Shown here: one piece after another, positions 24,505 through 63,101 of the stretch | How positions within the stretch are numbered: position 1 is the stretch's first letter | How the letters are laid out: each line of letters opens with the position of its first letter | Assembly (NCBI RefSeq): GCF_016863395.1 | Contig: NZ_BOOU01000067.1 | Span: 62,001-126,000, forward strand | DNA length: 64,000 nt | DNA from: Sphaerisporangium rufum | Lineage (GTDB): Bacteria; Actinomycetota; Actinomycetes; Streptosporangiales; Streptosporangiaceae | Direction: 5' to 3' | Position numbers and translations under genes: made by a program | Notes under the pieces: generated by a model | The model's database searches: none | Seen by the model: the letters and a program-made list of their open reading frames with translations, nothing else | Told to the model about the DNA's origin: nothing

Positions 24505-24505
24505 C

Positions 24506-25872: not shown

Positions 25873-25910
25873 ATTCGTGATCGGCAAAGCCCGGCCGCGG
25901 GCGCGCGGCG

Positions 25911-27884: not shown

Positions 27885-27894
27885 CGGTCGGCCG

Positions 27895-28113: not shown

Positions 28114-28185
28114 ATGTCCCCGTCCTTCCGTTGCTCGGTTTCATCACCACCGATCGGCCGGTCATCCGGCATCGGCGGTGGAAAG

Positions 28186-28271
28186 GAACCTACGGGCCAT
28201 GACGGGAGGCACGGCGAAACTTCCAACAATCTTGAACCATGGCCCCCTCGCCCGCCCGGCCTCGTAGGTTC
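28186..28271. promoter_or_regulatory. Divergent promoter pair with mirrored CGTAGGTTC elements
   Basis: CGTAGGTTC occurs at 28263-28271 on the plus strand (43 nt before lanB) and at 28194-28186 on the minus strand (73 nt before the precursor), in mirror orientation. TAGGTT fits the TANNNT form of a -10 box, or the pair may be two half-sites of one operator. A TTG(G/A)A motif lies about 25 nt upstream of each, too far for a normal -35. Confidence 0.45.
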
Positions 28272-28313
28272 GCGGTGCCGGAAAGGGCAGGTCACCGGAG
28301 ACGGGGGAAGACG

Positions 28314-41159: not shown

Positions 41160-42443
41160 TCACCCGGGGCTGCGCAGCACCAGCGCGCAGTTGATGCCGC
41201 TGAAGGCGACGCTGTTGGACACCGCGGTGCGGATCGTGGCCGGCGTCGCCGACCGCCCGGCCAGCGGCAGCTCCGGGTCCAGCGGCTCGGCCAGGTTCGG
41301 GTTGGGATGCACGAAGCCGTCGCGCATCTGCAGCACGGTGGCGACCAGCTCCAGCAGCCCGGACGCGCCCATACAGTGGCCGGTCAGCGGCTTGGTGGAG
41401 TTGATCAGCGGCGCCGGGCCGGCGCCGAAGACCGACAGCAGCGCCTGGGCCTCGACCGCGTCCCCGACCACCGAGCCGGTGCCGTGCGCGTTCACGTAGT
41501 CCACCTCGCCCGGGTCCACCCCCGCGGCGGCCAGCGCGGCGCGCAGCGCGGCGACCTGTCCCGCCGGATCCGGCCGGGTGCCGCGGCGCCCGTCGAGCCG
41601 CTGGCCGTACCCGGCGACCAGCGCCAGCGGCTTGGCACCGCGGGCCGCCGCCGCGCCCGCCTCCTCCAGCAGGACCGCCGCCGCGCCCTTTCCGTACACG
41701 AACCCCTGGCGGTGCCGGTCGAACGGCCGGCACGCCTGCCACGGCCGCTCCGGATCCGCGTGCGAGACCATCGCACCGGTGGCGTGGAAGGCCCGCAGCT
41801 CGGCGGCGGACAGCTCGGTGACCGGCGCCACCACCAGGCAGCGGTCCAGATCGCCGGCGGCGATCATCCGGGCGGCGAGGATCACCGCCAGCGTGCCGGC
41901 CGCGGACGCGCCGCCCGCCTGCCATCCCTCGCCCACCACCCCGGTCGCCTCGCTGACCGCGCCGATCACGTCGGTGTCGAGATGGGTGAGGGCGTGCGAG
42001 GGCCGCACGCCGCCCGGGCGGCTGATGAAACCGCGCCAGACCTCCGCCTGGTAGGCCAGCGCCAGGTTGTTGCCCGCGACGATCAGGCCGGCCGCCGCCC
42101 GCTCCTGCGGTCCGAGTCCGGCGTCGTGCAGGGCGGCGGCGGCGACGCGGGCCGCGCCGCGGGCGGGTGGCGCGGTGCGGCTCACCGCCCGGACCAGCCG
42201 GGCGGCGGCCTCGGTGTCGCCGGCCAACCGGCGGGCCGCCCACCCCGTCAGGTCCGGCTCGGCCGGCCAGGCGGCCACCGGGGTCCGCGCCTCGGCCGCC
42301 ATCTCGTCCCCGGTGACCCGGACGCCGCTGCGCCCCGCACGCAACGCGGCGGAGAAACCGTCCAGATCCTCGGCCACCGCGGTGCTCACCGCCGCGGCGG
42401 TGAGGACGACCTGCGCGCGGTGAAGAGGGCGAGGCGCCCCCAT
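41160..42443 (-). CDS. Ketosynthase-like protein with active-site Cys replaced by Ser (beta-branching decarboxylase type)
   Basis: The 427-residue protein has a KAS I/II thiolase fold. Aligned with FabF through AARIIA-GD, the nucleophile falls on S180 (GGASAAGTLAV, where FabF has ATACTSGV). Both His are kept (YVNAHGTGS and STKPLTGHCMGASG). Free-standing KS proteins with Cys-to-Ser changes decarboxylate malonyl-ACP to acetyl-ACP in HMG-CoA-synthase-type beta-branching cassettes (for example PksF). The HCS, ECH and ACP genes upstream in the same operon support that role. Its ATG shares one base with the stop of the preceding KS gene (TGATG). It is the last gene of the operon. A chain-length-factor role is less likely. 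Confidence 0.8.
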   Translation of the reverse strand: MGAPRPLHRAQVVLTAAAVSTAVAEDLDGFSAALRAGRSGVRVTGDEMAAEARTPVAAWPAEPDLTGWAARRLAGDTEAAARLVRAVSRTAPPARGAARVAAAALHDAGLGPQERAAAGLIVAGNNLALAYQAEVWRGFISRPGGVRPSHALTHLDTDVIGAVSEATGVVGEGWQAGGASAAGTLAVILAARMIAAGDLDRCLVVAPVTELSAAELRAFHATGAMVSHADPERPWQACRPFDRHRQGFVYGKGAAAVLLEEAGAAAARGAKPLALVAGYGQRLDGRRGTRPDPAGQVAALRAALAAAGVDPGEVDYVNAHGTGSVVGDAVEAQALLSVFGAGPAPLINSTKPLTGHCMGASGLLELVATVLQMRDGFVHPNPNLAEPLDPELPLAGRSATPATIRTAVSNSVAFSGINCALVLRSPG

Positions 42444-44362
42444 CACCGGGCGGCCGTGGCGGGCCGCGGGCCGGGCACGAACCCGAGCGGCACCCGGGCG
42501 AAGGGGTAGCCGGGCAGCCGCACCCGGGCCGGCGGCCGGTCCCACAGCGCGGCCCAGTCCGGGGCGCCGCCCGCCTGCCACTCCCGCGCGGCGGCCGCCG
42601 CCCGCTCCGGCAGGCCGGAGCCGTCCGGCTCGGGCGGCCCGCCGCCCGCGGCCAGGGCGCGCAGCCCGGCGACCAGCTCGGGCACCGAGGCGGCCGGGAC
42701 GACGGCCCGCGCGGCCAGATGATCGCGACCGGTCTGCAGGGTCCACGCGGTGGCGGGCAGCGCGGGGGCCGCCGGGCCGGCCAGGAACTCCGCCAGCCGG
42801 GCGGCCACCGCGCGCAGCCCGTCGGGTCCGGTACCGCTCACCGGCACCGGGTACCGGCCGCCGTCACCCGCGGCGGCCGGCCCGCCGGGCTCCGGCGCCT
42901 CGGCCAGCACCACGTGCGCGTTCGACCCGCCGATGCCGAACGAGCTGACGCCGAGCAGCCGCGGCCGTCCGGGGACGCGCGGCCAGGGGACGACGTCGCC
43001 CCCGGTGACCGCGGTCGCGGCCGGCTCGGCGCCGCCGTCGAACCTGAGCACTCCGGTGCTCACCGGGATGGCCTGGTTGACCAGCACCAGCACGGCCTTG
43101 GCCAGGCTGGCCAGCCCGGCGGCCGCCTCCAGGTGGCCGACGACCGCCTTCGCCGAGCCCATCCACAGCCCGCCCCCGGGGCCGCCGAAGCGGGCCGGCG
43201 CGCCGCCGGCGGCGAGCAGCCGGCGCACCGCCTCGACCTCCAGCACGTCCGCCCGGGTACCGGGGGCGTGCGCCTCCAGGTAGCCGAGATCGGCGGGCGC
43301 CAGCCCGGCCTGGTCCAGGGCGCGGCGCAGCAGCCGGGCCTGCGACTCGGTGTCGGTCCGGGTGAGGCCGCCCGCCCGGCCGTCGTGGTTCAGCGCGACG
43401 CCGCGGATCACCGCGAGCACCGGGTCGCCCGCGGCGAGCGCGTCGTCCAGCCGGCGCAGTACGAGGCACAGCGCGCCCTCGCCGCGCACGTAACCGTCGG
43501 CGTCGGCGGAGAACGGCCGGCACACCCCGGACGGCGACAGCGCTCCCATCATGGACATCGCGGCGAAGTACCAGCCTTCGGCGCACAGGTTGGCGGCGCC
43601 GACCAGCGCGGTGCCGAACTCCCCGGCGCGCAGCCCGGAGACGGCGAGCGCGAGCGCGCTCAGCCCGCTGGAGCAGGCGGTGTCCAGCGTGACGCTGGGC
43701 CCGCGCAGGTCGTAGTGATGGGACAGCCGGTTGGCCAGGTAGGTCGACAGCGACCCCACCGCCGCGTAGCGGTCCACCGTGCCGGTGCGGATCATCCGCT
43801 CGCGGAAGTCCGCGGTCGCCGCGGCGGCGAACACCGCGGTGTCGGTGCCGGCCAGCGACGACGGCGGGATGCCCGCCGATTCCAGCGCGTGCCAGCTGGT
43901 CTCCAGCAGCATCCGCTGCTGCGGGTCCATCCAGACGGCCATCCGGCGGCCGATGCGGAAGAAGTCCAGGTCGAAGGAGCCCGGGTCGGCGAGCAGCGCC
44001 GCACGCCCCCCGCCGGTGCCGGCGATGTCCGGGTCGTAGCCGTCCAGGCGGTCGGCCGGGACCGGCCCGGTGCGCAGCCGGCCGGCGACCAGGGTGCGCC
44101 ACAGCTCGTCCGGGCCGTCGCCGCCGGGCACCCGGCAGGCCAGGCCGACGACGGCCACCGGCGGCGGGCCGGACGCGCCGCGGCCCGCGGCCCGCGGGGC
44201 CGCCGCACGGGCCAGGCCCTGCGCCGGGTCGGACGCCGGGCGAGGTGCCGCGTCGGACGCCGGGCCGGGTGCCGGGTCGGACGCCGGGCCGGGTGCCGGG
44301 TCGGACGCCGGGCGTGATGTCGCGTTGGACGCCGGGTCGGGAGCCGGATGGGGTGCGGTCAC
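42443..44362 (-). CDS. Stand-alone PKS-type ketosynthase
   Basis: The 639-residue protein resembles a single KS excised from a modular PKS. An N-terminal linker of PASDPAPG repeats (about 10-48) is followed by PPVAVVGLACRVPGGDGPDELW and a KS core with C230 (DTACSSGLS), H365 and H410 (KAVVGHLEAAAG). The usual EAHGTGT motif is EAHAPGT here. A KS-to-AT linker remnant ends RVRLPGYPFARVPLGF, but there is no AT, KR or ACP. It would condense ACP-bound units, with malonyl supplied in trans. GTG at 44362 overlaps the stop of the ECH gene, and AAGGAGG lies about 9 nt upstream. It is central to the discrete-enzyme polyketide operon. Confidence 0.85.
   Translation of the reverse strand: MTAPHPAPDPASNATSRPASDPAPGPASDPAPGPASDAAPRPASDPAQGLARAAAPRAAGRGASGPPPVAVVGLACRVPGGDGPDELWRTLVAGRLRTGPVPADRLDGYDPDIAGTGGGRAALLADPGSFDLDFFRIGRRMAVWMDPQQRMLLETSWHALESAGIPPSSLAGTDTAVFAAAATADFRERMIRTGTVDRYAAVGSLSTYLANRLSHHYDLRGPSVTLDTACSSGLSALALAVSGLRAGEFGTALVGAANLCAEGWYFAAMSMMGALSPSGVCRPFSADADGYVRGEGALCLVLRRLDDALAAGDPVLAVIRGVALNHDGRAGGLTRTDTESQARLLRRALDQAGLAPADLGYLEAHAPGTRADVLEVEAVRRLLAAGGAPARFGGPGGGLWMGSAKAVVGHLEAAAGLASLAKAVLVLVNQAIPVSTGVLRFDGGAEPAATAVTGGDVVPWPRVPGRPRLLGVSSFGIGGSNAHVVLAEAPEPGGPAAAGDGGRYPVPVSGTGPDGLRAVAARLAEFLAGPAAPALPATAWTLQTGRDHLAARAVVPAASVPELVAGLRALAAGGGPPEPDGSGLPERAAAAAREWQAGGAPDWAALWDRPPARVRLPGYPFARVPLGFVPGPRPATAAR
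44228..44347 (-). repeat. Five 24-nt tandem repeats in the KS N-terminal linker
   Basis: The unit GTCGGACGCCGGGCCGGGTG plus CCGG (plus strand) occurs five times, two of them identical, in frame. It encodes the eight-residue PASDPAPG-type linker units and is likely to vary in copy number. Confidence 0.85.
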
Positions 44363-45162
44363 GTCGCGGTCTCCTCCTTCTCGCCGGGGCCGCCATTCCC
44401 GGTGCCGCGGGCGCCGGCCGGTTCCGGGCGCCAGATCTCCTCCGGGCGCCCGTACCGCTCGGCGACCAGGCGCCCGCGGTCGGCGGACGCCCAGGCCTCC
44501 TCGTGCGGGCCGATCTCCACGGCGGTGGCCGCGTCGGCGGCCGCCAGCAGCTGGGTGGCCAGTTGCCGCTTGAGCAGCAGCAGGGTGTGCCGCGGCGCCC
44601 GGGCGATGCCCTCGGCCAGCGCCAGCGACACCGGCAGCACCTGCTCGTGCGGCACGATCCGGACCGGGGCGCGCCGGTCGCGCAGTTCGGCGCCGCGGTA
44701 GCCGCGTGCGGTCAGCAGCATCTCGGTGCCCAGGGTCGAGCCGAGCCGCTCCCGCAGCAGCCAGGTCGTCCCGTACTCGGGGACCAGCGCGTAGTTGGCG
44801 AAGTTCGCCGCGTACACCGACCGCTCGCTCAGCACCGGCACGTCCGCATAGAGCCCCTGGGTCAGCCCGCCGCCGAAGGCGTGCCCCTGCATGGCGGCCA
44901 CCACCGGCAGCGCGCACCGGGCGAAGGCCCGGACGAACGGCTCCACCGCCGCCCGTTCCGGGCGCAGCAGGTGATCGCGGTCGGCCCCGCCGGCGAACAC
45001 GTTCGGCAGGCCGGTCACCACGACGACGTGCGCGGCCGGATCGCCGGCCACCGCGGCCAGCGCGGCGGCCAGGCCGGCGGCCAGCTCCGGGCCGATCGCG
45101 TTGCCGCGCGCGGCGTCCGCCATCCGTACCAGCGCCACCCGGCCGATCGACTCCACCGACAC
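44359..45162 (-). CDS. Enoyl-CoA hydratase-like protein of the beta-branching cassette
   Basis: The crotonase-fold protein of about 267 residues has ARGNAIGPELAAGL near the start, the oxyanion segment HAFGGGLTQGLYAD and ANYALVPEYGTTWLLRERLG, resembling PksH/CurE-type ECH1 dehydratases that act on the HMG-like intermediate. A second ECH (ECH2 decarboxylase) is not present in the operon. The start is uncertain: GTG at 45162 (VSVESIG) leaves a 29-nt gap after the HCS stop, and GTG at 45156 is also possible. Its stop overlaps the KS start. It probably dehydrates 3-hydroxy-3-methylglutaryl-ACP to the 3-methylglutaconyl form. Confidence 0.78.
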   Translation of the reverse strand: MSVESIGRVALVRMADAARGNAIGPELAAGLAAALAAVAGDPAAHVVVVTGLPNVFAGGADRDHLLRPERAAVEPFVRAFARCALPVVAAMQGHAFGGGLTQGLYADVPVLSERSVYAANFANYALVPEYGTTWLLRERLGSTLGTEMLLTARGYRGAELRDRRAPVRIVPHEQVLPVSLALAEGIARAPRHTLLLLKRQLATQLLAAADAATAVEIGPHEEAWASADRGRLVAERYGRPEEIWRPEPAGARGTGNGGPGEKEETAT

Positions 45163-45191
45163 CGGCCCGGCCGCGGCCGCCCGGCCGCGGG

Positions 45192-46514
45192 CTAGCGGGG
45201 CGGCAGCCACGTGTACTCCCGGTGGTGGTCGCGGATCGCGGTCAGCACGGCCCGGGGACGCGGGGCGCCCACCCCGGCGAGCCCGGCCGGGTCGAACTTC
45301 GCCTCCGCCGCGCCGAACGCCATGTCGGGCAGCGCCGCGGTGGCCGCGTCGTACTCCGCCACCGTCAGCCGCCGCCGGGCCGCCAGCTCGGCGGCCAGGC
45401 CGGTCCCGGCGACCAGCCGGGCCGCGCCCGCCGGGACGTGGCAGGCGAAGAACTCCGACGAGCACCCCGACCCGTAGCCGAACACGCCCAGCGACAGCGG
45501 CCCCGGGGACGGCGCGTGGGCGATCGCCCCGGCCATCGCGAGCAGCGCGGTGCCGGCGTAGATGTTGCCGACGTCGCGCGGGAACACCAGGGACGGTGCC
45601 ACCCGGCGGTCGAAGTCCTCCTGCTCCCGGTCGCGGGCCAGGCCGCCGAGCCGGCGCAGGGCGTGGCGGTGCGCGCCGCGCACCATGCCGGGGAACGGCG
45701 TGTGCATCGCCAGCAGGTCGTAGGTGCCGGCGAAGTCGGTGCCCGGCCGCCGGGCCGCGTGGTCGGTGAACGCGCCGAGCAGGCACTCCAGGTACGCCAG
45801 CAGCGACAGGTCGGTGTCCACCACGTCCAGGTCGGCGCGGGGACGGGCGAAGTCGGCCACCTCGTAGCCGTAGACCCCCGCGGTGCCGAGCTCCAGCCGG
45901 GCCACCGCGGGCCGCGGGCCGACCAGCATCGCGACCGCGCCGGCGCCCTGGGACGGCTCTGCGTAGGTACCCCGGTTCGGCACCGGCAGGTCGGTGGCCA
46001 CCACCAGCACCCGGCTGCCCGGTTCCACCGCGACCAGCGCCGCCGCGGCCCGCAGCGCGGCGACGCCGCCGTAACAGGCCTGCTTGATCTCCAGCAGCCG
46101 GCACTGGCGGGGCAGGCCGAGCAGCCGGTGCACATGGGTGCTCGCCGACTTCGACAGGTCGAACGCCGACTCGGTGGCGACGATCAGGGTCCGCACGCTC
46201 GCCCGTTCCGCCTCGGTGAGCGCGTCGGCCAGCGGGCGCGCGGCGGTCGCCGCCATCGCCACCACGTCCTCGCCGGGCAGGGCCACGCTCTTGCGGCGCA
46301 TGCCGAGGTTCCCCATCCGGGCCGGGTCCAGCCCCCGGGCCTGGAACAGGTCCGCCACGTCCACGTACGCGCTGCCGCAGTAGGCGGCGACCGCCTCGAT
46401 GCCCACCTGCGGCCCGCCGGGCTCGCCGCCGCCCCGCGGCGTCCCGGGCTCGGTGCTCCTCCACGGCCCCCCGGGCTCGCCGCCCGTCGCCGGCCCGCCG
46501 GTCGCGGCGGTCAC
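45192..46514 (-). CDS. HMG-CoA synthase-like (HCS) beta-branching enzyme
   Basis: The 440-residue protein is a 3-hydroxy-3-methylglutaryl synthase homologue with nucleophile C147 in EIKQACYGGVAAL, YAEPSQGAGAVAMLVG, the MHTPFPGM His segment and GVFGYGSGCSSEFF. In polyketide clusters such enzymes add an acetyl carbanion to a beta-keto-acyl-ACP, giving a beta-methyl or related branch. GTG at 46514 overlaps the stop of the first ACP gene by the GTGA rule; the first about 37 residues are Gly/Pro-rich. A mevalonate-pathway role is unlikely, because neighbours are ACPs and ketosynthases and no mevalonate genes are seen. Confidence 0.87.
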   Translation of the reverse strand: MTAATGGPATGGEPGGPWRSTEPGTPRGGGEPGGPQVGIEAVAAYCGSAYVDVADLFQARGLDPARMGNLGMRRKSVALPGEDVVAMAATAARPLADALTEAERASVRTLIVATESAFDLSKSASTHVHRLLGLPRQCRLLEIKQACYGGVAALRAAAALVAVEPGSRVLVVATDLPVPNRGTYAEPSQGAGAVAMLVGPRPAVARLELGTAGVYGYEVADFARPRADLDVVDTDLSLLAYLECLLGAFTDHAARRPGTDFAGTYDLLAMHTPFPGMVRGAHRHALRRLGGLARDREQEDFDRRVAPSLVFPRDVGNIYAGTALLAMAGAIAHAPSPGPLSLGVFGYGSGCSSEFFACHVPAGAARLVAGTGLAAELAARRRLTVAEYDAATAALPDMAFGAAEAKFDPAGLAGVGAPRPRAVLTAIRDHHREYTWLPPR

Positions 46515-46762
46515 GCCGGCCCGCCGATGCCGTGCCACAGCACGTCGACCAGGCCGCCGATGTCGCGGACCTTCGCCAGCCGGTCGGTGCCCAGTTCGAG
46601 GCCGATCTCGTCCAGCGCGCCGGAGACCACGTCCATCCGGTCCAGCGAGTCGCAGCCCAGCTCGGTCATGCTGCGGTCCTCCCGGATCTCCGCCGGGTCC
46701 AGCCCGGGCCGGACCGCGAGGATGTTGTCGCGGACCACCGCGAATACCTGGTCCCTGCCCAT
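46511..46762 (-). CDS. Acyl carrier protein 1
   Basis: The 83-residue protein has the phosphopantetheine site LGCDSLDRMDVV with S39 and an acidic four-helix profile. The DSLDRMD pattern is typical of free-standing ACPs that serve HCS cassettes. ATG at 46762 has GGGGGAGGGGG upstream. It overlaps the HCS start by 4 nt and may carry the acetyl unit that HCS delivers. Confidence 0.88.
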   Translation of the reverse strand: MGRDQVFAVVRDNILAVRPGLDPAEIREDRSMTELGCDSLDRMDVVSGALDEIGLELGTDRLAKVRDIGGLVDVLWHGIGGPA

Positions 46763-46778
46763 GCCCCCTCCCCCTCGG

Positions 46779-47048
46779 TCAGCCGGCGAGCGTCCGGTGG
46801 CGCAGCCGCTCGGCCAGGGCCCTGGGCGTGCCGAGGTCGAGCAGCGACTCGACGGTCTCGGTCGCGCCGAGCTCCCGCTTGAGCTGCGCCAGGTACTCGA
46901 CAGCGAGGATCGAGTCCAGCCCGAGGTCGGCGAAGCCGGTGTCCAGGGAGAGCGTCTCCGGCTCGACGTAGAGGATCTCGGCGAGCAGCCGCATCACGAC
47001 CGGCTCGACCGGCTCCGGTGGCACGCGGGTGCCGGGTTCGGTGGTCAT
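46779..47048 (-). CDS. Acyl carrier protein 2
   Basis: The 89-residue protein has the site LGLDSILAVEY with S46 and the later ESLLDLGTPRALAE. The sequence differs strongly from ACP1, so the two probably carry different substrates (growing chain versus branch donor). ATG at 47048 has AGGAGGA upstream and overlaps the KAS III-like stop (ATGA). Confidence 0.88.
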   Translation of the reverse strand: MTTEPGTRVPPEPVEPVVMRLLAEILYVEPETLSLDTGFADLGLDSILAVEYLAQLKRELGATETVESLLDLGTPRALAERLRHRTLAG

Positions 47049-48091
47049 CGTGGTCCTCCTGTCGTGGGGGTGGCCGGCCGGTCCGGGCCGGGCAGGCGGA
47101 CGGCCGCCGCCGCGGCCAGCTCGCCGGCGCCGGCGAACCCGGCCATCACGACCAGCCCGCCGCCGGCCGGCCGGCCGGCGCGCAGCGCGTGGTCCAGGTT
47201 CACCGGCACGCCGGCGCCGAAGAGGTTGCCGTAGGAGTCGAAGGTGTCGAAGTGCCGGGGCGCCTCGATGCCGAGCGCCGCCCCCCAGTTGCGCAGCAGC
47301 AGCCGGTTGGGCTGGTTGGTCACCAGCAGGTCGATGTCCTTGGGGGTGGCGCCGATGCGCTCGCAGACCCGGGTGACGACCTCCGGGACGATCTCGCTGC
47401 CCCGCTCGATGATGTTGTAGGCCTTGGAGTTGTCGAAGGCGACGTCGAACTCGGAGGTGCCCGGCTCCCAGTACAGCCGCCCGTCGTCCAGCTTCAGCGC
47501 GACGTCGGGGGCGTGGTCGGGATAGTGGCGGACCTCGGTGGCCAGGATCGGGGACTCGCCGGAGGCGCGCAGCAGGCCCACCGCCGCGCCGTCCCCGGGA
47601 ACGGCGGCGTGCGCCGACCGGCGCACCCCGGGCTGGGTGAAGATCCGCCCGGCGGTCTGCGCGGTGCACAGCAGCGCGGTCCGGGCACCGGTGTCGCGCA
47701 TCAGCGACCGCGCCAGGCCGAGCATGTACGGGAACACCGCGCAGTGGCCGTTGTGCAGGTCGACGATCTGCGCCGGCCGGCAGCCGAGCCGGCGGGCGAT
47801 CTCCGCGCCCGAGCCGAGGAACGGCACGTCCGGCAGCGCGTTGTGCGTGACCAGCAGGTCGATCTCGCCGGCCAGGTCGCTCCCGTGCCGCTCGAACAGC
47901 ACCGCGGCGGCCCGTTCCACCAGGTCGGCGCCGGTGTCCTCCCGGGCGGCGTACCGGCGGTACTCGGGGGCGCGGAACATCGGGTTGCGCAGCAGAGGAT
48001 CGTCCGGACGGGAGTACCGCTCGAAGTACTCGCGTCCCACCCGCTCCGGCGGCAGGTGGCTCGCCACGTCGACCAGGCTGACGGCGGTCAC
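47045..48091 (-). CDS. KAS III-like condensing/acyl-transfer enzyme with altered triad
   Basis: The 348-residue protein has a FabH/CerJ-type thiolase fold. The nucleophile C117 is in LHNGHCAVFPYML. The position of the FabH His is N259 (LVTNQPNRLL versus VPHQAN), and the Asn is N289 (SYGNLFGAGVP). Loss of His argues against ordinary decarboxylative Claisen condensation and for acyl transfer or another condensation. Its place between the ThDP/PLP genes and two ACPs suggests that it loads a starter. GTG at 48091 overlaps the SRPBCC stop, and its stop overlaps the ACP2 start. Confidence 0.83.
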   Translation of the reverse strand: MTAVSLVDVASHLPPERVGREYFERYSRPDDPLLRNPMFRAPEYRRYAAREDTGADLVERAAAVLFERHGSDLAGEIDLLVTHNALPDVPFLGSGAEIARRLGCRPAQIVDLHNGHCAVFPYMLGLARSLMRDTGARTALLCTAQTAGRIFTQPGVRRSAHAAVPGDGAAVGLLRASGESPILATEVRHYPDHAPDVALKLDDGRLYWEPGTSEFDVAFDNSKAYNIIERGSEIVPEVVTRVCERIGATPKDIDLLVTNQPNRLLLRNWGAALGIEAPRHFDTFDSYGNLFGAGVPVNLDHALRAGRPAGGGLVVMAGFAGAGELAAAAAVRLPGPDRPATPTTGGPR

Positions 48092-48732
48092 GGCCGCGCC
48101 CCGCCCGCGGTGATCGGGATGCCCATCCGGTGCCGGTACTCCAGGATGGCCTTGAGGTTCTCCAGCTCCAGCAGGTGTCCGCCGTAGAACTGGTGCCAGA
48201 AGTCGCCGACCCAGCGGCGGTCCGGGCTGGGCGCCAGCTCCGGGTAGGGGTTCTTCTCGTAGTACGGATGGTGGCAGTTCGTCCACAACACCACCGACCC
48301 GGGCCGCTTGAGCACGGTCTGCGCGTCGACCACCCGGAACAGGTAGATCATCCACAGGTCGTGGCCCTGGTCCCAGGCCGCGTGGTAGTCGACGGTGAGC
48401 GCGTCGGGGTTGGCGTCGATCCGCACGTAGATGCGGGTGGTGCCCGACAGCCGGTCCCACCCGACGTGCAGGCCGGTGTCGTCCACCGGTTCCAGGTCGC
48501 GGACGCTGTAGGTGTACTCCTCCTGGCTGAACATGTCCGCCAGGTAGTCGTACACCTGCCGCGGCGGGCAGTCGATGTACCCCTGCAGCGTGCAGAAGTC
48601 CCCATAGACCTCCTGGTGGGAGTAGAACTCCTTGGTGTGCTCGCCCACCAGCTTGAACGCCTCCGGCAGCGGCATGTTCTCGAACCGCGCCAGCCCCGGG
48701 ATCTCGGCCAGCTCTTCCTCGGACACCCTCAT
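48088..48732 (-). CDS. SRPBCC/START-type protein in the polyketide operon
   Basis: The 214-residue protein begins with about 45 residues rich in acidic and aromatic positions and continues with a START-like domain (CTLQGYIDCPPRQVYDYLADMFS, WDRLSGTTRIYVRID, then HAAWDQGHDLWMIYLFRVVDAQ). It may be a cyclase/aromatase-like or ligand-binding helper; I cannot assign a reaction. ATG at 48732 overlaps the upstream stop (ATGA). The same overlap style on both sides shows that it is a fixed member of the operon. Confidence 0.7.
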   Translation of the reverse strand: MRVSEEELAEIPGLARFENMPLPEAFKLVGEHTKEFYSHQEVYGDFCTLQGYIDCPPRQVYDYLADMFSQEEYTYSVRDLEPVDDTGLHVGWDRLSGTTRIYVRIDANPDALTVDYHAAWDQGHDLWMIYLFRVVDAQTVLKRPGSVVLWTNCHHPYYEKNPYPELAPSPDRRWVGDFWHQFYGGHLLELENLKAILEYRHRMGIPITAGGARP

Positions 48733-50468
48733 GTCGCCATGGTCCTTTCGACGGGTCGCGGCCGGTCGGCCGGTCGCAGCAGGGGCAGGTAGGGGGGCGG
48801 CTCCTCCGGCCGCACCTCGACCGAGACCAGCGACGGCGACCCGCTCGCGCCGCCGTCGGCCAGGAAGTCGCGCAGCTCGTCCAGTCGATGGACGGTCGCG
48901 GACCTGATCGAGGGGAACATGCGCGCGACGCCGGTACCGAGATCGCTCGGCCGGAAGGCGCTGTAGGAGGTGTCACCGCCGTAGAACAGCTCCTCGCGGG
49001 ACAGGCAGGCCGCGTGCGCGTTGTTGTTGAAGATCACGAAGGTGATGGGCAGGTCGTACTCGACGGCGGTGTGCACCTCCAGGCCGTGCATGAGGAACGA
49101 TCCGTCCCCGGCCAGCAGGAAGGTGCGCCGGCCGGTGGCGAACGCGGCGCCGATGGCGGCGCCGAAGCTGAACCCCATGCCGCCCATGCCGAGGGCCAGC
49201 AGGCTGCGGCCGCGGCGCGGCGCGGGCAGGAAGTGCAGGACGCCGCAGCCGGTGTTGCCCGCGTCCGACACCACGTTGGCGTCCTCGGGGACGAATCCGG
49301 CCACCGTCTCGATCACCTCGCGGACGGCGATCCGCCCGTCCCGGCTGCGCTCGTGCGGCAGGTACGACAGGCCCGGGTGCGGCGGGCAGCCGTCCGGCCC
49401 GTGCGGCGCCGGCCCGGTGAACGCGCGGGTCACCGCCCGCAGCTCGGCGCGCAGCTCGCCGTCCACCCGCAGCACCGGCACCCCGGCGTCCACGTGCGGG
49501 GGCCGCCGGTCGAAGCAGATGAGCACCTTGCCGGCCAGGCCGTCCTCCAGCCCGGCCCGGGCGACCTGCGGGAACCGGGTGCCGACCAGCAGGCAGGCGG
49601 CGGCCCGGTCCAGCGCCAGGCGCACGCTCGGGTGGCCGCTCGCGCCGGCCACCCCAACGAAGCGCCGGTGGTGATTGTCGAAGACGTCCTTGGCGTCCGG
49701 TTCGACGGCGACCCAGGCGCCGAGTCCCTCGGCCAGCGCCGCCAGCTCGGCGCGGGCGTCCGCGCGGGCCACCCCGGCCCCGGCGATGATCAGCACGGCG
49801 GCCTGGTCGCGGCGCAGCCCGGCCAGCACCGTGCCCGCCGCGGGGTCGGCGCGGACCTCGGCCGGCTCCGGCCGGGCCGGCCCCGCCGGCGGCCAGGGCC
49901 CGGTGGCCGGAGCCTGCTGGACGTCCTTGGGCAGCAGCAGGACGGCCGGGCCGCCCGGATCGCCGAGGGCCGCCCGGATCGCCCGGTCCAGCGCCTGGCC
50001 GATGGCGTCCGGATGGTTGACGCGCGCGCAGAACCGGGAGATCGGCGCGAACAGCGCCGGACCGTCCAGCGAGCCGGCCAGCCCGCTCTGGTCCTGGAAG
50101 GCGCCGTGGCCCTCCAGGGCGATGGGCGGCTGCCCGATCAGCGCCAGCACCGGGACCCCCGAGGCGTAGGCCTCGCCGAGTCCGGGCACCAGGTTGAGCG
50201 CGCCGCCGCCGGAGGTGGCCATCACCACGGCCAGGCCGTTGCCGGCCCGGTGGTAGCCGTCCGCCATCGCCGCCGCGGAGAACTCGTGCTTGGCGACGAC
50301 CGCCTGGACCGGCTCGGCGGACCGGAACACCGCGTCGAAGAGGTCCTCGACGTTGGCGCCGTGCACGCCGAACAGGTGCCGGACCCCGGCCGCCCGGCTG
50401 AGGTGCGCGACGATCTGGTCGGCGACCCGGCCCGGCGTGCCCGGAGGCACCGGCTCAGCCATGCTCAT
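48729..50468 (-). CDS. ThDP-dependent enzyme (acetolactate synthase-like)
   Basis: The 579-residue protein has the full three-domain layout of the acetolactate synthase/decarboxylase family. The PYR domain has the activating E62 (VVAKHEFSAAAMADGY). The middle domain lies at about 195-330. The PP domain has the ThDP-Mg motif GDGSFLMHGLEVHTAVEYD ending in FNNN. It could join or decarboxylate a 2-oxo acid, for example one made by the aminotransferase encoded upstream. No regulatory subunit or other branched-chain amino acid gene is nearby, so housekeeping acetolactate synthesis is unlikely. ATG at 50468 (or 50462) overlaps the aminotransferase gene by 14 or 8 nt. Confidence 0.85.
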   Translation of the reverse strand: MSMAEPVPPGTPGRVADQIVAHLSRAAGVRHLFGVHGANVEDLFDAVFRSAEPVQAVVAKHEFSAAAMADGYHRAGNGLAVVMATSGGGALNLVPGLGEAYASGVPVLALIGQPPIALEGHGAFQDQSGLAGSLDGPALFAPISRFCARVNHPDAIGQALDRAIRAALGDPGGPAVLLLPKDVQQAPATGPWPPAGPARPEPAEVRADPAAGTVLAGLRRDQAAVLIIAGAGVARADARAELAALAEGLGAWVAVEPDAKDVFDNHHRRFVGVAGASGHPSVRLALDRAAACLLVGTRFPQVARAGLEDGLAGKVLICFDRRPPHVDAGVPVLRVDGELRAELRAVTRAFTGPAPHGPDGCPPHPGLSYLPHERSRDGRIAVREVIETVAGFVPEDANVVSDAGNTGCGVLHFLPAPRRGRSLLALGMGGMGFSFGAAIGAAFATGRRTFLLAGDGSFLMHGLEVHTAVEYDLPITFVIFNNNAHAACLSREELFYGGDTSYSAFRPSDLGTGVARMFPSIRSATVHRLDELRDFLADGGASGSPSLVSVEVRPEEPPPYLPLLRPADRPRPVERTMAT

Positions 50469-51645
50469 TGACCACCTCGGTGAATATGTCCAGACCGGCG
50501 ATGATGGCCTCGGCCGGGGCGGTCACCCCGATGCGGACGCACTGCCGGGCATGCGGGTCGTCGTGCAGGTGCGGCAGATAGAAGGGCGCGGCCGGCGCCA
50601 CGAGCACGCCGCGGTCGAGCAGGGTGAAGAACAGCTCGGCCGTGCGACCGGCCAGCCCGGGCAGCCGCACCCAGGCGAACTGGCCGCCGTCCACCGCGTG
50701 CACCCGGTACGGCACGGTCAGGCCGGCGGCCAGCCGGTCCCGGACCAGCCGGTGCCGCTCCTGATAGGCGTCGCGCAGCTCGCCCCCGCACAGCTCGACG
50801 TACCGCCCGTCGCGCAGCAGGATGGCCGCGGCGAACTGGACCAGCTGCGGCGGGAAGGTGGCCACCCGCGCCTGCAGCTCGCCGAGCTCGCGCACCACCG
50901 GCGCCGGGGCCAGCACGAAGCCGAGCCGCTCGCCGGCCAGCGCCCCCTTGGAGAAGCTCTGCACGCAGACGACGTTGTCGCCCCAGGGCAGCCCCATGTC
51001 GCGGTAGGCCAGCCCCGGGATCGGCGGGCCGTAGGCGTTGTCGACGACCAGCAGCGCGCCCACCGACGCGCATTCGCCGGCCAGCGCGGCCAGCGCCGCG
51101 TCCCCGATGACGTTGCCGGACGGGTTGGCCGGCCGGGAGACGATGACCGCGCCGACGTCCGGATCGAGCCGGCCGGCCGGCGGCAGGTAGCGGAACTCCC
51201 GGTCGCCCTGCTCGACCACCTCGGGCAGCAGCATGTCGTACCGCACCTCGGGGTGGGTGCGGTAGCCCGGGTACTCGGGGGCGAAGAACACCACCCGCCG
51301 GCCGCGCGCCGCCGCCAGCGCCGACACCGCGTGGAACGCGGCCTGCGCGCCCGGGGTGATCAGCACCTCCTCGGCGGTCACCGGCAGCGCGTAGTGCTCG
51401 CCGTACAGCCGGGCCAGCCGCTCGCGCAGCTCGGGGTCGCCGAGCACGCCGTGGTAGAGGCTCACCCGCCGGGTGAAGCTCGCGTCCTCGACGGCGCGGC
51501 GGAACGCCGAGCGGACCAGCTCGGCGACCGGCGGATGCACGAGCGGCATGCCGGTGGCCAGGTTGTGCCCCTGGCCGGACCCGGCCAGCAGGTAGGGCAC
51601 CAGATCCGGCCACTCCTCGACGGCGCGCAGCCCGGTACGGGTCAT
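50455..51645 (-). CDS. PLP-dependent class I/II aminotransferase
   Basis: The 396-residue fold-type I enzyme has SRPANPSGNVI (about 170-180), DNAYGPP for the PLP ring Asp, and K233 in QSFSKGALAGERLGF. The later RIG segment supplies the carboxylate Arg. The pattern fits alanine/valine-type or 2-aminoadipate-like aminotransferases. It could provide the 2-oxo acid for the ThDP enzyme or add an amino group to the polyketide. ATG at 51645 overlaps the radical SAM stop (ATGA). Confidence 0.87.
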   Translation of the reverse strand: MTRTGLRAVEEWPDLVPYLLAGSGQGHNLATGMPLVHPPVAELVRSAFRRAVEDASFTRRVSLYHGVLGDPELRERLARLYGEHYALPVTAEEVLITPGAQAAFHAVSALAAARGRRVVFFAPEYPGYRTHPEVRYDMLLPEVVEQGDREFRYLPPAGRLDPDVGAVIVSRPANPSGNVIGDAALAALAGECASVGALLVVDNAYGPPIPGLAYRDMGLPWGDNVVCVQSFSKGALAGERLGFVLAPAPVVRELGELQARVATFPPQLVQFAAAILLRDGRYVELCGGELRDAYQERHRLVRDRLAAGLTVPYRVHAVDGGQFAWVRLPGLAGRTAELFFTLLDRGVLVAPAAPFYLPHLHDDPHARQCVRIGVTAPAEAIIAGLDIFTEVVNEHG

Positions 51646-53183
51646 CGGACCGCCCGGTCCCGGTGCCGGTCCTCGATGCCGCCCGGCAGGTCGAGCCGGC
51701 CGATCGGCGAGTAGTCGTGCCGGTCCACCGGGTCGGAGGCGGGCGACTCGATGCGCTCGTTGGCCTCGGCCACCCGCGCGCGGACCTCGTCGCTGGCGAA
51801 CAGGTGCCCGATGCCGTCCACGAAGGCGCCGCCGAGGTCGGTGAGCGCCAGGTGCGCGCCGTCCACCTCGACCAGGCCGAGGGCGCGCAGCCGGCGCAGC
51901 TCGGCGGCGAACAGCTCGGTGCCGTCGACGCCGAAGGCGTCCCGCAGCGCGCCGAAGTCCACGCCGCCGGACCGGATGCCGAACATCACCGCGCGCCGCA
52001 CCCGCTCCTCGGCCGACAGGGTGTGGCCGCGCCACACCCCGGTCCGGCCGGCGGCGACCGCGGCCATATAGGCGGAGTTGTCGCACAGGTTGTAGTACTG
52101 GGTGCCGCCGATGTAGCCGAAGCTGCTCACGCCGAGTCCGACGAGGTTGTCCGCCTCGATGGAGTCGAACTTGTTGCGCTGCTGGCGCGAGTGCTCCCCG
52201 CGCCGCGAGTAGTAGAAGACCGGCCCGCGGGTGAAACCGGCGTGTCCGAGCACGTACTCGGCCATGTAGTGCATGACCAGCCGCTCGCGCTCGTCCGGGA
52301 ACTCCTGGGGGGCGCGGATGTAGTGCCGGGTGATCGGGTCGGATCGCTTGAACATCAGCGGGAAGATGTTGAACTTCTCGATGCCCGCCGCCAGCAGCTC
52401 GACCAGGGTGGCGTACCAGTTCTCCACGGTCTGCGAGGGCAGGCCGAAGATCAGGTCGACGTTCAGGTCGCGGACGTCGCGGGCGGCCAGCAGCTCCAGC
52501 AGCCGGTACACCTCGGCGCGCCCGTGCCCGCGGTTCAGCGTGGCGAGGACCTGCTCGTCCATGGATTGGATGCCGAACACCCAGCGGTTCACCCCGCCGG
52601 CGGCGATGGCGTCCAGCCGGTCCTCGTAGTCGGGGCGGCGGACCACGCCGGGGTGGAGTTCGAAGGTGATCTCGGTGTCGCCGCCGGTCCGGACGTGCCG
52701 CCACAGGTGGGCGAACAGCCCGTCGAGCTGGGCGGCGTCCAGGTAGGAGGGGGTGCCGCCGCCGAAGTAGACCGAGGAGGCGGTGAATCCGCCGGGCGCG
52801 CGGGCGGCGGCGAGGGTGATCTCCTCGCGCAGGGCGGCCAGGTAGCGGTCCACCCGGCCGGCGTCGGCCCGGATCTCCTTGTAGAAGTGGCAGAAGGTGC
52901 AGTACTGCTCGCAGAACGGCAGATGCAGGTAGAGATTCTGCGAGGGGGTGAGGCCGGCGTAGACCTCGTCCTCCTCGATGTCGCGCAGGTATTTCAGCGG
53001 CGGGTAGGTGCCCACCAGGTAGTACTCCAGGGGCGTCCGGTGCACGCCGGCGGCGCGCAACTCGCCCAGTGGTAACTCGCCGACCTTCGTCTGAGCGTAT
53101 TCCAGTGTTTCGCCCAGCCCGGGCGGTACGGACGGGCGGATGTTCCCCGCCGGATCCGATACCTGTCCTCGCTGCGATAACAC
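51642..53183 (-). CDS. HemN-like radical SAM enzyme
   Basis: The 513-residue protein has the CX3CX2C cluster ligands C91, C95 and C98 (FCEQYCTFCHFY), YFGGGTPSYL for SAM binding, and the C-terminal HemN-like winged domain. It is the first gene of the operon. In secondary metabolism HemN-like proteins act as class C methylases or cyclopropanases rather than haem enzymes, which fits its place here. GTG at 53183 is preferred since GGGGAGG lies 8 nt upstream; ATG at 53216 is an alternative with a weaker site. The about 45 residues before the barrel (GETLEYAQTKVGELPLG) are not typical of HemN. Confidence 0.87.
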   Translation of the reverse strand: MLSQRGQVSDPAGNIRPSVPPGLGETLEYAQTKVGELPLGELRAAGVHRTPLEYYLVGTYPPLKYLRDIEEDEVYAGLTPSQNLYLHLPFCEQYCTFCHFYKEIRADAGRVDRYLAALREEITLAAARAPGGFTASSVYFGGGTPSYLDAAQLDGLFAHLWRHVRTGGDTEITFELHPGVVRRPDYEDRLDAIAAGGVNRWVFGIQSMDEQVLATLNRGHGRAEVYRLLELLAARDVRDLNVDLIFGLPSQTVENWYATLVELLAAGIEKFNIFPLMFKRSDPITRHYIRAPQEFPDERERLVMHYMAEYVLGHAGFTRGPVFYYSRRGEHSRQQRNKFDSIEADNLVGLGVSSFGYIGGTQYYNLCDNSAYMAAVAAGRTGVWRGHTLSAEERVRRAVMFGIRSGGVDFGALRDAFGVDGTELFAAELRRLRALGLVEVDGAHLALTDLGGAFVDGIGHLFASDEVRARVAEANERIESPASDPVDRHDYSPIGRLDLPGGIEDRHRDRAVR

Positions 53184-53647
53184 GAGCCTCGCCTCCCCGC
53201 ACCCCGTCCGCCCCATCACAGATGTCGCCCATGGCTACTGGCCAATAATGACCGAAATAGGGGGTGATAGGGGCGTGATGGGGGCAACCGTAAGTTAGGG
53301 CGCTGAATCCCGTCAAGCCATTACTTTGCGCGACCGAAGGTGCGCTTTCCGAGATGTGAGGTACGTCAAGAAAAGCCGGGCGGAACGTTAGGCGACCGCT
53401 CGGCGAACCTCCGCCATACCGACAATTCTTGGCATCCATGCAGGTCAGCTCGATGTTCTGTCAATGTCTTGACAAATCCGCCAATCGTGGTCAACCATGC
53501 GGTGATGGCCGCCTCGGCTGATTTGTCCGCAGCGTGAAGGTTGAAATTTAACGCGCCCTGCCGAGCCGGCGGCCACCGGGGGAATGAGCGGCTTTTGGCA
53601 CGTCCCGGCATGCCCGGGCGGCCAACGGGGGTGCGGAGGTATCAGCG
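53184..53647. other. Divergent promoter region of the polyketide operon and P450
   Basis: There are 464 nt clearly poorer in GC than the surroundings, especially 53220-53560. It holds TGTCAA-TGTC-TTGACA (53459-53474). Short open frames on both strands lack the codon bias of the neighbours. Two divergent promoters are expected here, but I could not place full -35/-10 pairs. Confidence 0.5.
53459..53474. promoter_or_regulatory. Inverted repeat TGTCAA-4-TTGACA
   Basis: A 16-nt operator-like element with perfect 6-bp arms. The right arm is also a consensus -35 hexamer for rightward transcription toward the P450, 174 nt before its start. A regulator bound here could control the cluster; no regulator gene is present within it. 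Confidence 0.4.
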
Positions 53648-54946
53648 GTGAACATCGGTATTCCGGCTGCCCGAAATCCGGCCGGCGAATGCCCGGCCCG
53701 CGCGGCGTCGCGGATCGCGGCGGACTTCGACCCGTTCGGCGCGGATTACCAGCTCGACCCGGCCGGGGCGCTCAGCGAGGCCCGGGCCTGCGAGCCGGTC
53801 TTCTACAGCCCGCGGCTGGACTACTGGGTCGTCACCCGTTACCAGGACGTCCGGAGCGTCTTCCGCGACACGCGGAGCTTCTCCGCCTCGATCGCGCTGG
53901 ATCCCATCACCCCGCTCGCCGAGCCCGCCCGCGAGTGCCTGCGCGGCTACGGCTTCGCCGCCGGCCCGGTGCTGGTCAACGAGGACGAGCCCCTGCACAT
54001 GCGCCGCCGCCGCCGGCTCGCCCCGCCGCTCGCCGCCGGCCGGGTCGCCCGGCTGGAGGACCGCATCCGCGCCCTGGTCGCCCGGTACGTCGAGCGGTTC
54101 GCGGCGCGCGGCCACGCCGACCTGGTGGACGACCTGCTGTGGGAGGTGCCCGCGATCGTCGGGCTGCTCGTCATGGGATTGCCCGACGAGGACATCGAGC
54201 GGGCCCGGCACTACGCCATCAAGATGGGATTGTTCACCTGGGGCCGGCCCACCGCCGAGCACCAGGTCGAGATCGCCGACCAGGTGGGCCGGTGGTGGCG
54301 GCTGTCCGGCGAGCTGGTGGCGCGCCTCAAGCGGGACGGCGGCGAGGGCTGGCTGCCGCATGCCATCGCCGTGCACCGCGAGCAGCCGGACCTGGTGAAC
54401 GACAACCACCTGCAGAACATGATGATGAGCGGCCTGGTCGCGGCGCACGAGACCACCACCAACGCCACGGCCGGCGCGATGAAGAACCTGCTGTCGGACC
54501 CGGCGTCCTGGCGCGAGCTGTGCGCCGACCCGGCCCTGGTGCCCGGCGCGGTGGAGGAGTCGCTGCGCTACTCCTCCTCCGTGCTGTGCTGGCGGCGCCG
54601 AGCGGTGACCGACGTCGTGGTGGGCGGGGTGCCGATCCCGGCGGGCGGGCGGCTGCTGCTGATGATCGGCTCGGCCAACCACGACGAGCGGGTGTTCCCC
54701 GACCCCGGGCGCTTCGACATCCGCCGCCCGAACGCGCGCCGCCATCTGGCGTTCGGCATCGGCGCGCACGCGTGCATCGGGGCCCCGCTGGCCCGGCTGG
54801 AGATGCGGGTCATCCTGGAGGAGCTGGCCCGGCGGCTGCCCGGCCTGCGGCTGGTCCCCGGCCAGGACTTCGCCTACCTGCCGAACGCGTCCTTCCACGG
54901 CCCCCGGCACGTCCGCGTCGAATGGGACACCTCCCCCGCGGGCTGA
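53648..54946 (+). CDS. Cytochrome P450, divergent from the polyketide operon
   Basis: The 432-residue soluble bacterial P450 has the haem motif FGIGAHACIGA with C376, EESLR (EXXR, E304-R307) in helix K, and the I-helix oxygen-activation site AAHETTTN (about 265-272). GTG at 53648 has GGAGG 9 nt upstream. It probably hydroxylates or epoxidises the cluster product, with ferredoxin and reductase encoded elsewhere. The shared promoter region and the lack of other nearby targets support membership of the cluster. Confidence 0.9.
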   Translation: MNIGIPAARNPAGECPARAASRIAADFDPFGADYQLDPAGALSEARACEPVFYSPRLDYWVVTRYQDVRSVFRDTRSFSASIALDPITPLAEPARECLRGYGFAAGPVLVNEDEPLHMRRRRRLAPPLAAGRVARLEDRIRALVARYVERFAARGHADLVDDLLWEVPAIVGLLVMGLPDEDIERARHYAIKMGLFTWGRPTAEHQVEIADQVGRWWRLSGELVARLKRDGGEGWLPHAIAVHREQPDLVNDNHLQNMMMSGLVAAHETTTNATAGAMKNLLSDPASWRELCADPALVPGAVEESLRYSSSVLCWRRRAVTDVVVGGVPIPAGGRLLLMIGSANHDERVFPDPGRFDIRRPNARRHLAFGIGAHACIGAPLARLEMRVILEELARRLPGLRLVPGQDFAYLPNASFHGPRHVRVEWDTSPAG

Positions 54947-60375: not shown

Positions 60376-61332
60376 TCACGCCGCCGCGCTCGGCCGCCCC
60401 AGCTCGCGCCGGAACCAGCCGATGGTGCGGCGCAGGCCGGTGCCGGGGTCGACGCGGGCGTGCCAGCCGAGGAGTTCGCCGGCGAGGGTGGTGTCCGGGC
60501 GGCGGACCGCCGGGTCGTCGGCGGGGCGGTCGATGTGCTGGATGGGCGAGGCCGAACCGGTGAGCTCCCGAATGGTGCCGGCCAGCTCCAGCATGGTCAT
60601 CTCCACCGGGTTGCCGATGTTGACCGGACCGGAGTGGACCGAACCGGCCAGCGCCAGGATGCCGGTGACGGTGTCGTCCACGTAGCAGATGGACCGGGTC
60701 TGGGTGCCGTCGCCGGTGACGGTGATCGGCTGCCCGGTGAGGGCCTGCCGGATGAAGGTCGGGATGGCCCGGCCGTCATTGGGGCGCATCCGCGGACCGT
60801 AGGTGTTGAAGATGCGGACGATGGCGGTGTCCAGGCCGTGGGTGGTGCGGTAGGCGGTGGTGAGCGATTCGGCGAAGCGTTTGGCCTCGTCGTACACGCT
60901 GCGCGGGCCGACCGGGTTGACGTTGCCCCAGTAGGTCTCGCGCTGCGGATGCTCCAGCGGGTCGCCGTACACCTCGCTGGTGGAGGCGAGCAGGAACCGG
61001 GCGCCCTTCTCCCGGGCCAGGCCGAGCATGTGCGAGGTCCCCTCGCTGCCCACCCGGAGGGTCTCGATGGGGTGGTCCAGGTAGTCGGCCGGCGAGGCGG
61101 CGGAGGCCAGGTGGAGCACCAGGTCCACCTCCCCCGGCACGTGCACGAACCCGGTGACGTCGCACTCCAGCAGCCGGAACCGCCGCTCGCCCATCAGGTG
61201 CGCCACGTTCTCCGGCGACCCGGTCAGGAAGTTGTCCAGGCAGATCACCTCGTCCCCCCGGGCCAGCAGGCGCTCGCACAGGTGCGAGCCGAGGAAGCCC
61301 GCGCCTCCGGTCACGACGACTCTTTTCGGCAT
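60376..61332 (-). CDS. NAD-dependent sugar epimerase/decarboxylase (UXS-like)
   Basis: The 318-residue extended SDR has [10 protein letters not shown] (9-18), [11 protein letters not shown] and the catalytic pair Y147/K151 (YDEAKRFAE), with [12 protein letters not shown] and RSICYVDD. This set of motifs is that of UDP-glucuronate decarboxylase (UDP-xylose synthase) and close relatives. It makes a nucleotide-activated sugar for a surface glycan. Its ATG overlaps the end of the GT9 gene by 22 nt, so the two are co-transcribed. Confidence 0.85.
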
Positions 61333-62312: not shown

Positions 62313-62383
62313 GGACGCTCACCGTCGCTCATGAACGGTCACGGGCGCGCACGGTCGCAGCACGGGCGTGCTCACGGGCGTGC

Positions 62384-63064: not shown

Positions 63065-63101
63065 GTGCGGCTCCTCGTGCGGAAGGTGGTCCGGCCGGCG
63101 G

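Follow-up and report, generated by a model that had tools for sequence, protein, structure and literature searches.

The stretch analysed here, called the window in the following, comprises 64,000 nucleotides of the Sphaerisporangium rufum draft genome (7.8 Mb in 173 contigs; positions 62001–126000 of contig NZ_BOOU01000067.1, here C67). It contains eleven leftward genes at 41160–53219 and a divergent cytochrome P450 gene (Table 1). The eleven genes encode a HemN-like radical S-adenosylmethionine (SAM) protein, a pyridoxal phosphate (PLP)-dependent aminotransferase, a thiamine diphosphate (ThDP)-dependent carboligase, an SRPBCC protein, a condensing enzyme similar to β-ketoacyl-ACP synthase III (KAS III), two acyl carrier proteins (ACP1 and ACP2), an HMG-CoA-synthase-like protein (HCS), a protein of the enoyl-CoA hydratase (ECH) family, a polyketide synthase (PKS)-type ketosynthase (KS) and a Ser-type KS. 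A crude gene finder using the GC content of third codon positions (GC3) mis-picked frames or starts of several of these genes, and homology decided the frames and starts used here. The original prediction, made from the letters of this DNA, had placed the same twelve genes here; all of the open reading frames are present, and profile searches support their assignments. It had also called the genes mostly overlapping, which with the chosen starts applies to eight of the ten junctions between neighbours (overlaps of 1–14 bases), the remaining two being gaps of 16 and 29 bases. Profile searches likewise bear out the reported lack of acyltransferase (AT), thioesterase (TE) and nonribosomal peptide synthetase (NRPS) functions, as PF00698 (AT), PF00975 (TE) and PF00668 (NRPS condensation) have no match on contig C67, and of a ketoreductase (KR), since the sole KR-like match seen is a short-chain dehydrogenase/reductase (SDR) at 62384–63217 inside a separate block of sugar genes. 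The idea of β-branching by discrete enzymes without a modular PKS is supported.

Table 1. Genes of the cluster in the S. rufum window, with the matches on which the assignments are based
Feature	Position	Strand	Evidence
HemN-like radical SAM protein, 525 aa, CxxxCxxC	51642..53219	-	PF04055 + PF06969
PLP aminotransferase, AvtA-like (valine-pyruvate-transaminase-like), 396 aa	50455..51645	-	NF006967, 373 bits (cut-off 402)
ThDP-dependent carboligase, acetolactate synthase (ALS)-like, 579 aa	48729..50468	-	PF02776/PF00205/PF02775; top PDB matches BbmA, CsmA
SRPBCC carbazole synthase homologue, 214 aa	48088..48732	-	PDB 6ipv (CqsB2), E 2.9e-47
KAS III-like condensing enzyme, 348 aa	47045..48091	-	PF08541/PF08545
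ACP1, PKS-type carrier	46779..47048	-	PF00550; motif GLDSILAVEY in 5/5 clusters
ACP2, AcpK-like	46511..46762	-	top NCBIfam model NF005502 (PRK07117), 50 bits, under cut-off 79
HMG-CoA-synthase-like protein (HCS), prokaryotic type, 440 aa	45192..46514	-	TIGR01835 5.6e-68 (under cut-off), PF01154, PF08540
ECH, ECH2 (PksI/CurF decarboxylase) type	44359..45162	-	NF005496 (PRK07110) above cut-off; PDB CurF 2.3e-44, PksI 1.4e-40
PKS-type KS without AT, 639 aa	42443..44362	-	PF00109, PF02801, PF16197, PF22336
Ser-type KS, PksF-like	41160..42443	-	NF005490 (PRK07103), 427.5 bits (cut-off 445)
Cytochrome P450, no fused reductase	53648..54946	+	PF00067; PDB 6kbh 1.4e-144, P450 RhF 6ro8 2.3e-120

In profile searches, neither Pfam nor NCBIfam matched the SRPBCC protein, and its only match in the PDB is CqsB2, the carbazole synthase of carquinostatin biosynthesis. 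In the available text of a review (PMC7466098), Glu105, Tyr144, Tyr172, His206 and Glu209 of CqsB2 are proposed as catalytic, and the printed CqsB2 sequence, when numbered, places all five residues where the review names them. Tyr144, Tyr172, His206 and Glu209 correspond to Tyr130, Tyr158, His186 and Glu189 of the window protein and are identical in 16/16 rows compared; at the position of Glu105 the window protein carries Asp93, so that four of the five proposed catalytic residues are identical. The protein thus very likely takes the role of CqsB2/NzsI, and an assignment of the cluster to the formation of a carbazole core is, judged from its sequence, equally very likely.

In carquinostatin biosynthesis, CqsB7 transaminates tryptophan, the ThDP enzyme CqsB3 couples indole-3-pyruvate with pyruvate, the KAS III-like CqsB1 joins the resulting keto acid to an acyl-ACP and CqsB2 closes ring A (PMC7466098). 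The aminotransferase, ThDP enzyme, SRPBCC protein, KAS III-like enzyme and ACP of the window match CqsB7, CqsB3, CqsB2, CqsB1 and CqsB6 in kind, with the ThDP, KAS III-like and aminotransferase genes encoded beside the carbazole synthase gene. We infer that the aminotransferase acts as CqsB7, converting tryptophan to indole-3-pyruvate, that the ThDP carboligase takes the role of CqsB3/NzsH and that the KAS III-like enzyme takes that of CqsB1/NzsJ, in which case the latter should couple an indole keto acid with a finished acyl chain. The original prediction had anticipated the chemistry of an amino-acid-derived 2-oxo acid by PLP and ThDP enzymes, which is supported, and had further proposed that the ThDP product is loaded as a starter by the KAS III-like enzyme and that extension and branching follow. 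We, too, initially thought of the ThDP enzyme as forming an acyloin or loading a starter, until the CqsB2 match displaced this idea. Although the KAS III gene adjoins that of ACP1 and KAS III enzymes often prime chains, loading of this kind appears highly improbable, since a carbazole precedent exists for the same neighbouring trio, the carbazole synthase homologue would be left without a role, the trio recurs elsewhere in the stretches compared without any match to the window ACPs, KSs or HCS, and the KAS III-like enzyme lacks the histidine that in KAS III serves malonyl decarboxylation.

The core might instead act on phenylpyruvate or 4-hydroxyphenylpyruvate and deliver another fused aromatic compound or an acyloin. 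Related ThDP enzymes (ScyA and the sattazolin enzymes) accept varied 2-oxo acids, the aminotransferase is AvtA-like and not a known tryptophan enzyme, and exchanges in both the synthase and the KAS III-like enzyme, described below, mark a separate subfamily. We nevertheless regard such a substrate as unlikely, since four of the five proposed CqsB2 residues are invariant, TrpB-type genes lie within ~12 kb of the core in one Tsukamurella and one Nocardia locus, and the chemistry of CqsB2 uses the indole C2–C3 π bond as its nucleophile (review PMC7466098).

To place the cluster among its relatives, we compared 15 other SRPBCC loci, nine from a scan of a genome collection and six from plasmids, among them loci of Rhodococcus, Nocardia, Tsukamurella, Embleya, Bdellovibrionota metagenome-assembled genomes (MAGs) and one Legionella MAG. 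A ThDP homologue is present in 14/15 and a KAS III homologue in 13/15 of these loci; L010 lacks both, and the contig of L012 ends just after the SRPBCC gene. Of the nine genome loci, four have the whole set of the window in unchanged order, namely those of Actinomadura sp. DC4 (L005), Streptomyces longwoodensis DSM 41677 (L006), Saccharopolyspora oryzae (L007) and S. indica (L008), at 51–81% identity per gene. With this recurrence in four other genomes of three genera, the gene order is not due to chance. All twelve genes present in the window are 58–81% identical to those of the relatives except for ACP1 (51–66%); the aminotransferase (63–74%) and the P450 (74–77%) are kept in all four. The P450 gene is divergent in three of the relatives, as in the window, and in Actinomadura it lies behind the operon in the same orientation. 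The SRPBCC proteins of the window and the four HCS-type clusters form one clade (support 97/95), and the window HCS has no match in the compared stretches outside the four HCS loci. The Embleya stretch encodes its own ACP. When twelve window genes flanking the cluster served as queries, none matched the four HCS loci or a wider Actinomadura stretch, which sets the boundary of the cluster; a protein with two DUF4142 stretches at window 39650–41044 adjoins it and is apparently not a member. A search of the genus around Actinomadura sp. DC4 gave no further cluster (one of eight genomes, DC4 itself), and at the level of the order the gene was found in 2/297 genomes, one of them being that of the window.

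Several loci of this comparison deserve mention in their own right. Core genes of the carbazole type occur in the Bdellovibrionota and Legionella MAGs (L009:8199–11652, L011:7300–12826, L012:1704–5116 and L013:5942–8771), with aminotransferase, ThDP, SRPBCC, KAS III and P450 genes in a row on the Bacteriovoracaceae contig L011, which suggests that carbazole-like compounds may be made outside the actinobacteria. In Embleya sp. NBC_00896 (L019:12738–16425), the KAS III, carbazole synthase and ThDP genes are very close to the CqsB2 type, so that this almost unannotated record appears to hold a carquinostatin/neocarazostatin-like locus. On plasmid pRB29 of Rhodococcus oxybenzonivorans (L016:13971–15700), the KAS III gene beside the ThDP and SRPBCC genes seems disrupted, with a partial match and no annotated coding sequence.

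Several of the remaining genes of the operon resemble an HCS cassette. Its donor ACP, Ser-type KS (KS0) and HCS are all present, each with its model matched under the respective cut-off, as is the optional ECH2-type decarboxylase, whose model is matched above the cut-off and whose nearest PDB entries are CurF and PksI. The HCS has a cysteine in KQACYGG, the PKS-type KS retains Cys-His-His and the Ser-type KS carries ASA in place of ACS. ACP2, whose best model PRK07117 we take to be of the AcpK-like type, is probably the donor ACP of the cassette, ACP1 presumably accepts the growing acyl chain and the Ser-type KS presumably decarboxylates malonyl-ACP2. We therefore consider it quite probable that the locus is a carbazole alkaloid cluster in which a discrete HCS β-branching cassette builds the acyl side chain, and a β-branched (β-methylated) chain is likely. 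What would be new here, as read from the genes, is that the KS, second ACP, HCS, ECH and Ser-type KS replace the simple acyl supply of the carbazole pathway, which is why the chain should be β-methylated; the core is already known.

The gene identities, their conservation and the catalytic residues are established by this analysis, and we infer from them each chemical step and the product identity. After transamination of tryptophan to indole-3-pyruvate, the PKS-type KS would use malonyl-ACP1 for a single extension of a fatty acyl starter that is short and probably branched. As contig C67 has no AT, malonyl loading must come from elsewhere: an acyltransferase of primary metabolism would provide the malonyl groups, and an AT-family frame of 322 aa on contig C64 is one example of a possible source. 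Since the operon has no KR, the β-ketone would be retained and become the target of HCS. The Ser-type KS would turn malonyl-ACP2 into acetyl-ACP2, which HCS would add to this β-ketone, and ECH enzymes would dehydrate and decarboxylate the branch to R-C(CH3)=CH-CO-ACP1, although the usual ECH1 is lacking in this genome. The KAS III-like enzyme would condense the acyl group of ACP1 with the indolyl keto acid, thereby removing the chain from ACP1 so that a thioesterase is not needed, and the SRPBCC carbazole synthase would close and aromatise ring A. Finally, the benzo ring of the indole would receive a one-carbon unit from the HemN-like enzyme, and a hydroxylation would be carried out by the P450.

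The HemN-like protein possesses the CxxxCxxC radical SAM domain and a HemN_C domain, and the tyrosine that stacks on the second SAM is present (LYLHLPFC). At E ≤ 0.001, its only PDB matches are HemN (1olt, 1.7e-36) and the class C methylase NocN (9p2u, 7.8e-18), and in the printed alignment the Arg and Asp positions agree, while the equivalent of NocN Tyr276 varies with the alignment. NocN adds a one-carbon unit at indole C4 (PMC12871812), and an aromatic hydroxymethyl group depends on the HemN-like CoeI, although only methylation was seen in vitro; the same source refers to a shunt product of NosN that bears a hydroxymethyl group (available text of PMC9714029). A homologue is found in all four other HCS-type clusters, and we regard the window protein as a putative methylase of class C with the indole ring as its target. 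The P450 is nearest to RhF-like heme domains, presumably of the CYP116B type. A flavin monooxygenase-like gene lies beside the P450 gene in all four relatives (52–93% identical to the S. indica copy), and either the P450 or this flavin enzyme, which the window lacks, could supply a ring oxygen or an epoxide.

The synthase differs from CqsB2, and the KAS III-like enzyme from that of the CqsB2-like Embleya locus. Aspartate stands at the position of Glu105 in 15 of the 16 rows, namely in the clade of the window and ten relatives outside the CqsB2 group, the exception being the Embleya protein with Glu like CqsB2. The KAS III-like enzyme retains Cys and Asn, and Asn replaces the histidine of the HQ.N motif, the expectation of Cys-His-Asn being taken from KAS III in general and not from CqsB1. 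The resulting motif TNQPN is present in 12/13 sequences of the window subfamily, the thirteenth (L016) being disrupted there, whereas the Embleya locus retains His in THQPN. The machinery for mono-oxygenated carbazoles is stated as unsolved, and the 3-oxygenated lipocarbazoles come from Tsukamurella pseudospumae (PMC7466098). A plasmid of Tsukamurella tyrosinosolvens carries an Asp-type module, and the subfamily of Asp-type synthases and Asn-type KAS III enzymes may therefore make mono-oxygenated carbazoles. A possible counter-case is the chlocarbazomycin synthase chlCz5, as a mono-hydroxylated intermediate is proposed for that pathway (available text of PMC10100901). The module in question (NZ_LR134449.1, L015:12343–15646) consists of ThDP, SRPBCC and KAS III genes with a TrpB-like gene nearby, and its SRPBCC protein weakly matches the scytonemin cyclase model ScyC (E 0.00066); given the source of the lipocarbazoles, these are candidate lipocarbazole-type genes.

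Several observations weigh against a carbazole pathway with a working cassette in S. rufum. ECH1 is absent from the window, a point the original prediction did not mention, and a search of the own genome found no close homologue (best 41% over part of the sequence, E 3.3e-13). ECH1 is counted among the minimal parts of such cassettes (available text of PMC12560621), so that the window lacks one defining feature that its four relatives possess. In all four, ECH1 sits between HCS and ECH2 (for the Actinomadura protein, PRK07112 is the best model, under its cut-off), and ECH2 is directly preceded by another ECH gene in 7/7 control cassettes picked from 22 plasmid records. The flavin enzyme gene of the relatives is likewise unmatched in the window, and a search of the own genome gave no close homologue of it. 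Many β-branching acceptor ACPs carry Trp where ACP1 has Tyr in 5/5 clusters. Since His is replaced by Asn in the KAS III-like enzyme and Glu105 by Asp in the synthase, a chemistry identical to that of CqsB1 and CqsB2 is not assured, and the characterised CqsB1 and CqsB2 take only β-hydroxyacyl substrates as opposed to the enoyl chain proposed here (PMC7466098). In sequence, the HemN-like protein resembles HemN more than NocN, and Foldseek with a model of it (mean pLDDT 60, middling confidence) ranks HemN first, with NocN not among the 50 matches listed; with HemN as best match and a model of this confidence, the result leaves class C membership undecided.

The missing genes could mean that the carbazole set and the cassette cooperate in principle while the pathway is altered or decaying in this strain, and that it yields a different compound (e.g. 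a tertiary alcohol with retained carboxylate), little or nothing, or depends on a borrowed ECH. The presence of ECH1 and the flavin enzyme in all four relatives, the position of ECH genes in the control cassettes together with the merely distant ECHs of the own genome, and the gap of only 29 bases between HCS and ECH, by which ECH1 is cleanly missing, all point this way. On the other hand, the twelve genes are open, conserved to the degree given above and have kept their overlaps, and in a draft of 173 contigs ECH1 could still lie on missing sequence. We hence judge an altered or decaying pathway to be rather unlikely, albeit not negligible. An altered decarboxylase had also been considered from the loss of a CurF-type lysine (the catalytic residue Lys86 of CurF), and the idea was dropped as the seven control ECH2 proteins likewise lack this lysine.

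Taking the carbazole pathway with its branched side chain as the preferred explanation, the likely product type is a 1-(2-methylalkenyl)-2-methyl-3-hydroxycarbazole similar to the carbazomadurins and epocarbazolins, and our best guess is that it carries a one-carbon group from SAM. Carbazomadurin A has an (E)-2,5-dimethylhex-1-enyl group at C1, which matches an HCS-type branch, and indole C4 becomes C5 of the carbazole. The carbazomadurins are products of Actinomadura (PMC10951976) with a 3-oxygenated skeleton (PMC7466098), and a carbazole prepared following the published carbazomadurin synthesis, 3-ethoxy-1-hydroxy-8-methoxy-2-methylcarbazole-5-carbaldehyde, carries both a C5 one-carbon group and an 8-oxygen, so that both features fit (PMC6479671). 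In the available text of open-licence literature naming these compounds, no carbazomadurin or epocarbazolin gene cluster was found. That the five clusters are this missing pathway, with the HCS cassette for the side chain, the HemN-like enzyme for the C5 hydroxymethyl group and the Asp/Asn subfamily for 3-mono-oxygenation, is an identification to which we give slightly less than even chances.

When compared to described systems, the window shares the aminotransferase, ThDP carboligase, KAS III-like enzyme, CqsB2/NzsI-type synthase and free-standing ACP with the cqs and nzs clusters, and P450 tailoring with nzs. These clusters differ in obtaining their acyl chain from a classical KAS III (CqsB5/NzsF) and FabG, and in having a prenyltransferase and an isopentenyl diphosphate (IPP) isomerase; an HCS cassette, a PKS-type KS or a radical SAM enzyme is not named for them in the available text (PMC7466098). 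The window synthase and KAS III-like enzyme moreover fall into a subfamily of their own, with Asp at the position of Glu105 and Asn at that of His. With the HCS (HMGS) cassettes of pksF-I, curacin and bongkrekic acid, the locus has in common the AcpK-like donor ACP, Ser-type KS, HCS and ECH2-type crotonase, but there is no modular PKS to serve, the acceptor is a free ACP and ECH1, present in the four relatives, is absent. The chlCz cluster for chlocarbazomycin from Streptomyces tubbatahanensis also has an aminotransferase, ThDP enzyme, KAS III, ACP and SRPBCC synthase, but uses FAD and SDR oxidoreductases and a distant halogenase, with no mention of HMG or radical SAM enzymes in the available text (PMC10100901). 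The class C methylases NosN/NocN and CoeI share the HemN-like domains and CxxxCxxC and, in the available text on them, target indole C4 or an aromatic carbon, whereas the window protein is closer to HemN. The original prediction knew of no described pathway with this gene set. This stands for the whole set, as no pathway with HCS, KAS III and HemN was found described in open-licence literature, but not for the core, which is known from carquinostatin. Likewise, nothing was found in open-licence literature that links carbazole formation to HCS cassettes or radical SAM enzymes, and subscription papers on such a link could exist.

Two further loci of the window are separate from the cluster. Lanthipeptide-like genes at 21886–32587 encode a LanB-type dehydratase (28239–31298) and a LanC-like cyclase (31295–32587); upstream of these lie genes for an ABC transporter and two proteases of the subtilisin type. 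Heptose/sugar-type genes at 60376–63929, in an actinobacterial host, encode an epimerase, a glycosyltransferase of family 9, the SDR mentioned above and an HldE-like kinase/adenylyltransferase.

For carbazoles that are neuroprotective or inhibit lipoxygenase, and whose pathways we did not find described, the five clusters offer candidate genes. Since the subfamily differs from CqsB2 and the Embleya KAS III at two named positions, the question of how mono-oxygenated carbazoles arise becomes directly testable, and should the five clusters indeed belong to the carbazomadurins, the relative on the Tsukamurella plasmid would belong to the lipocarbazoles. If our assignment is correct, polyketide β-branching and cofactor-free carbazole ring closure would be joined in one pathway of discrete enzymes, and a β-branching cassette would serve the assembly of an alkaloid without a modular PKS.

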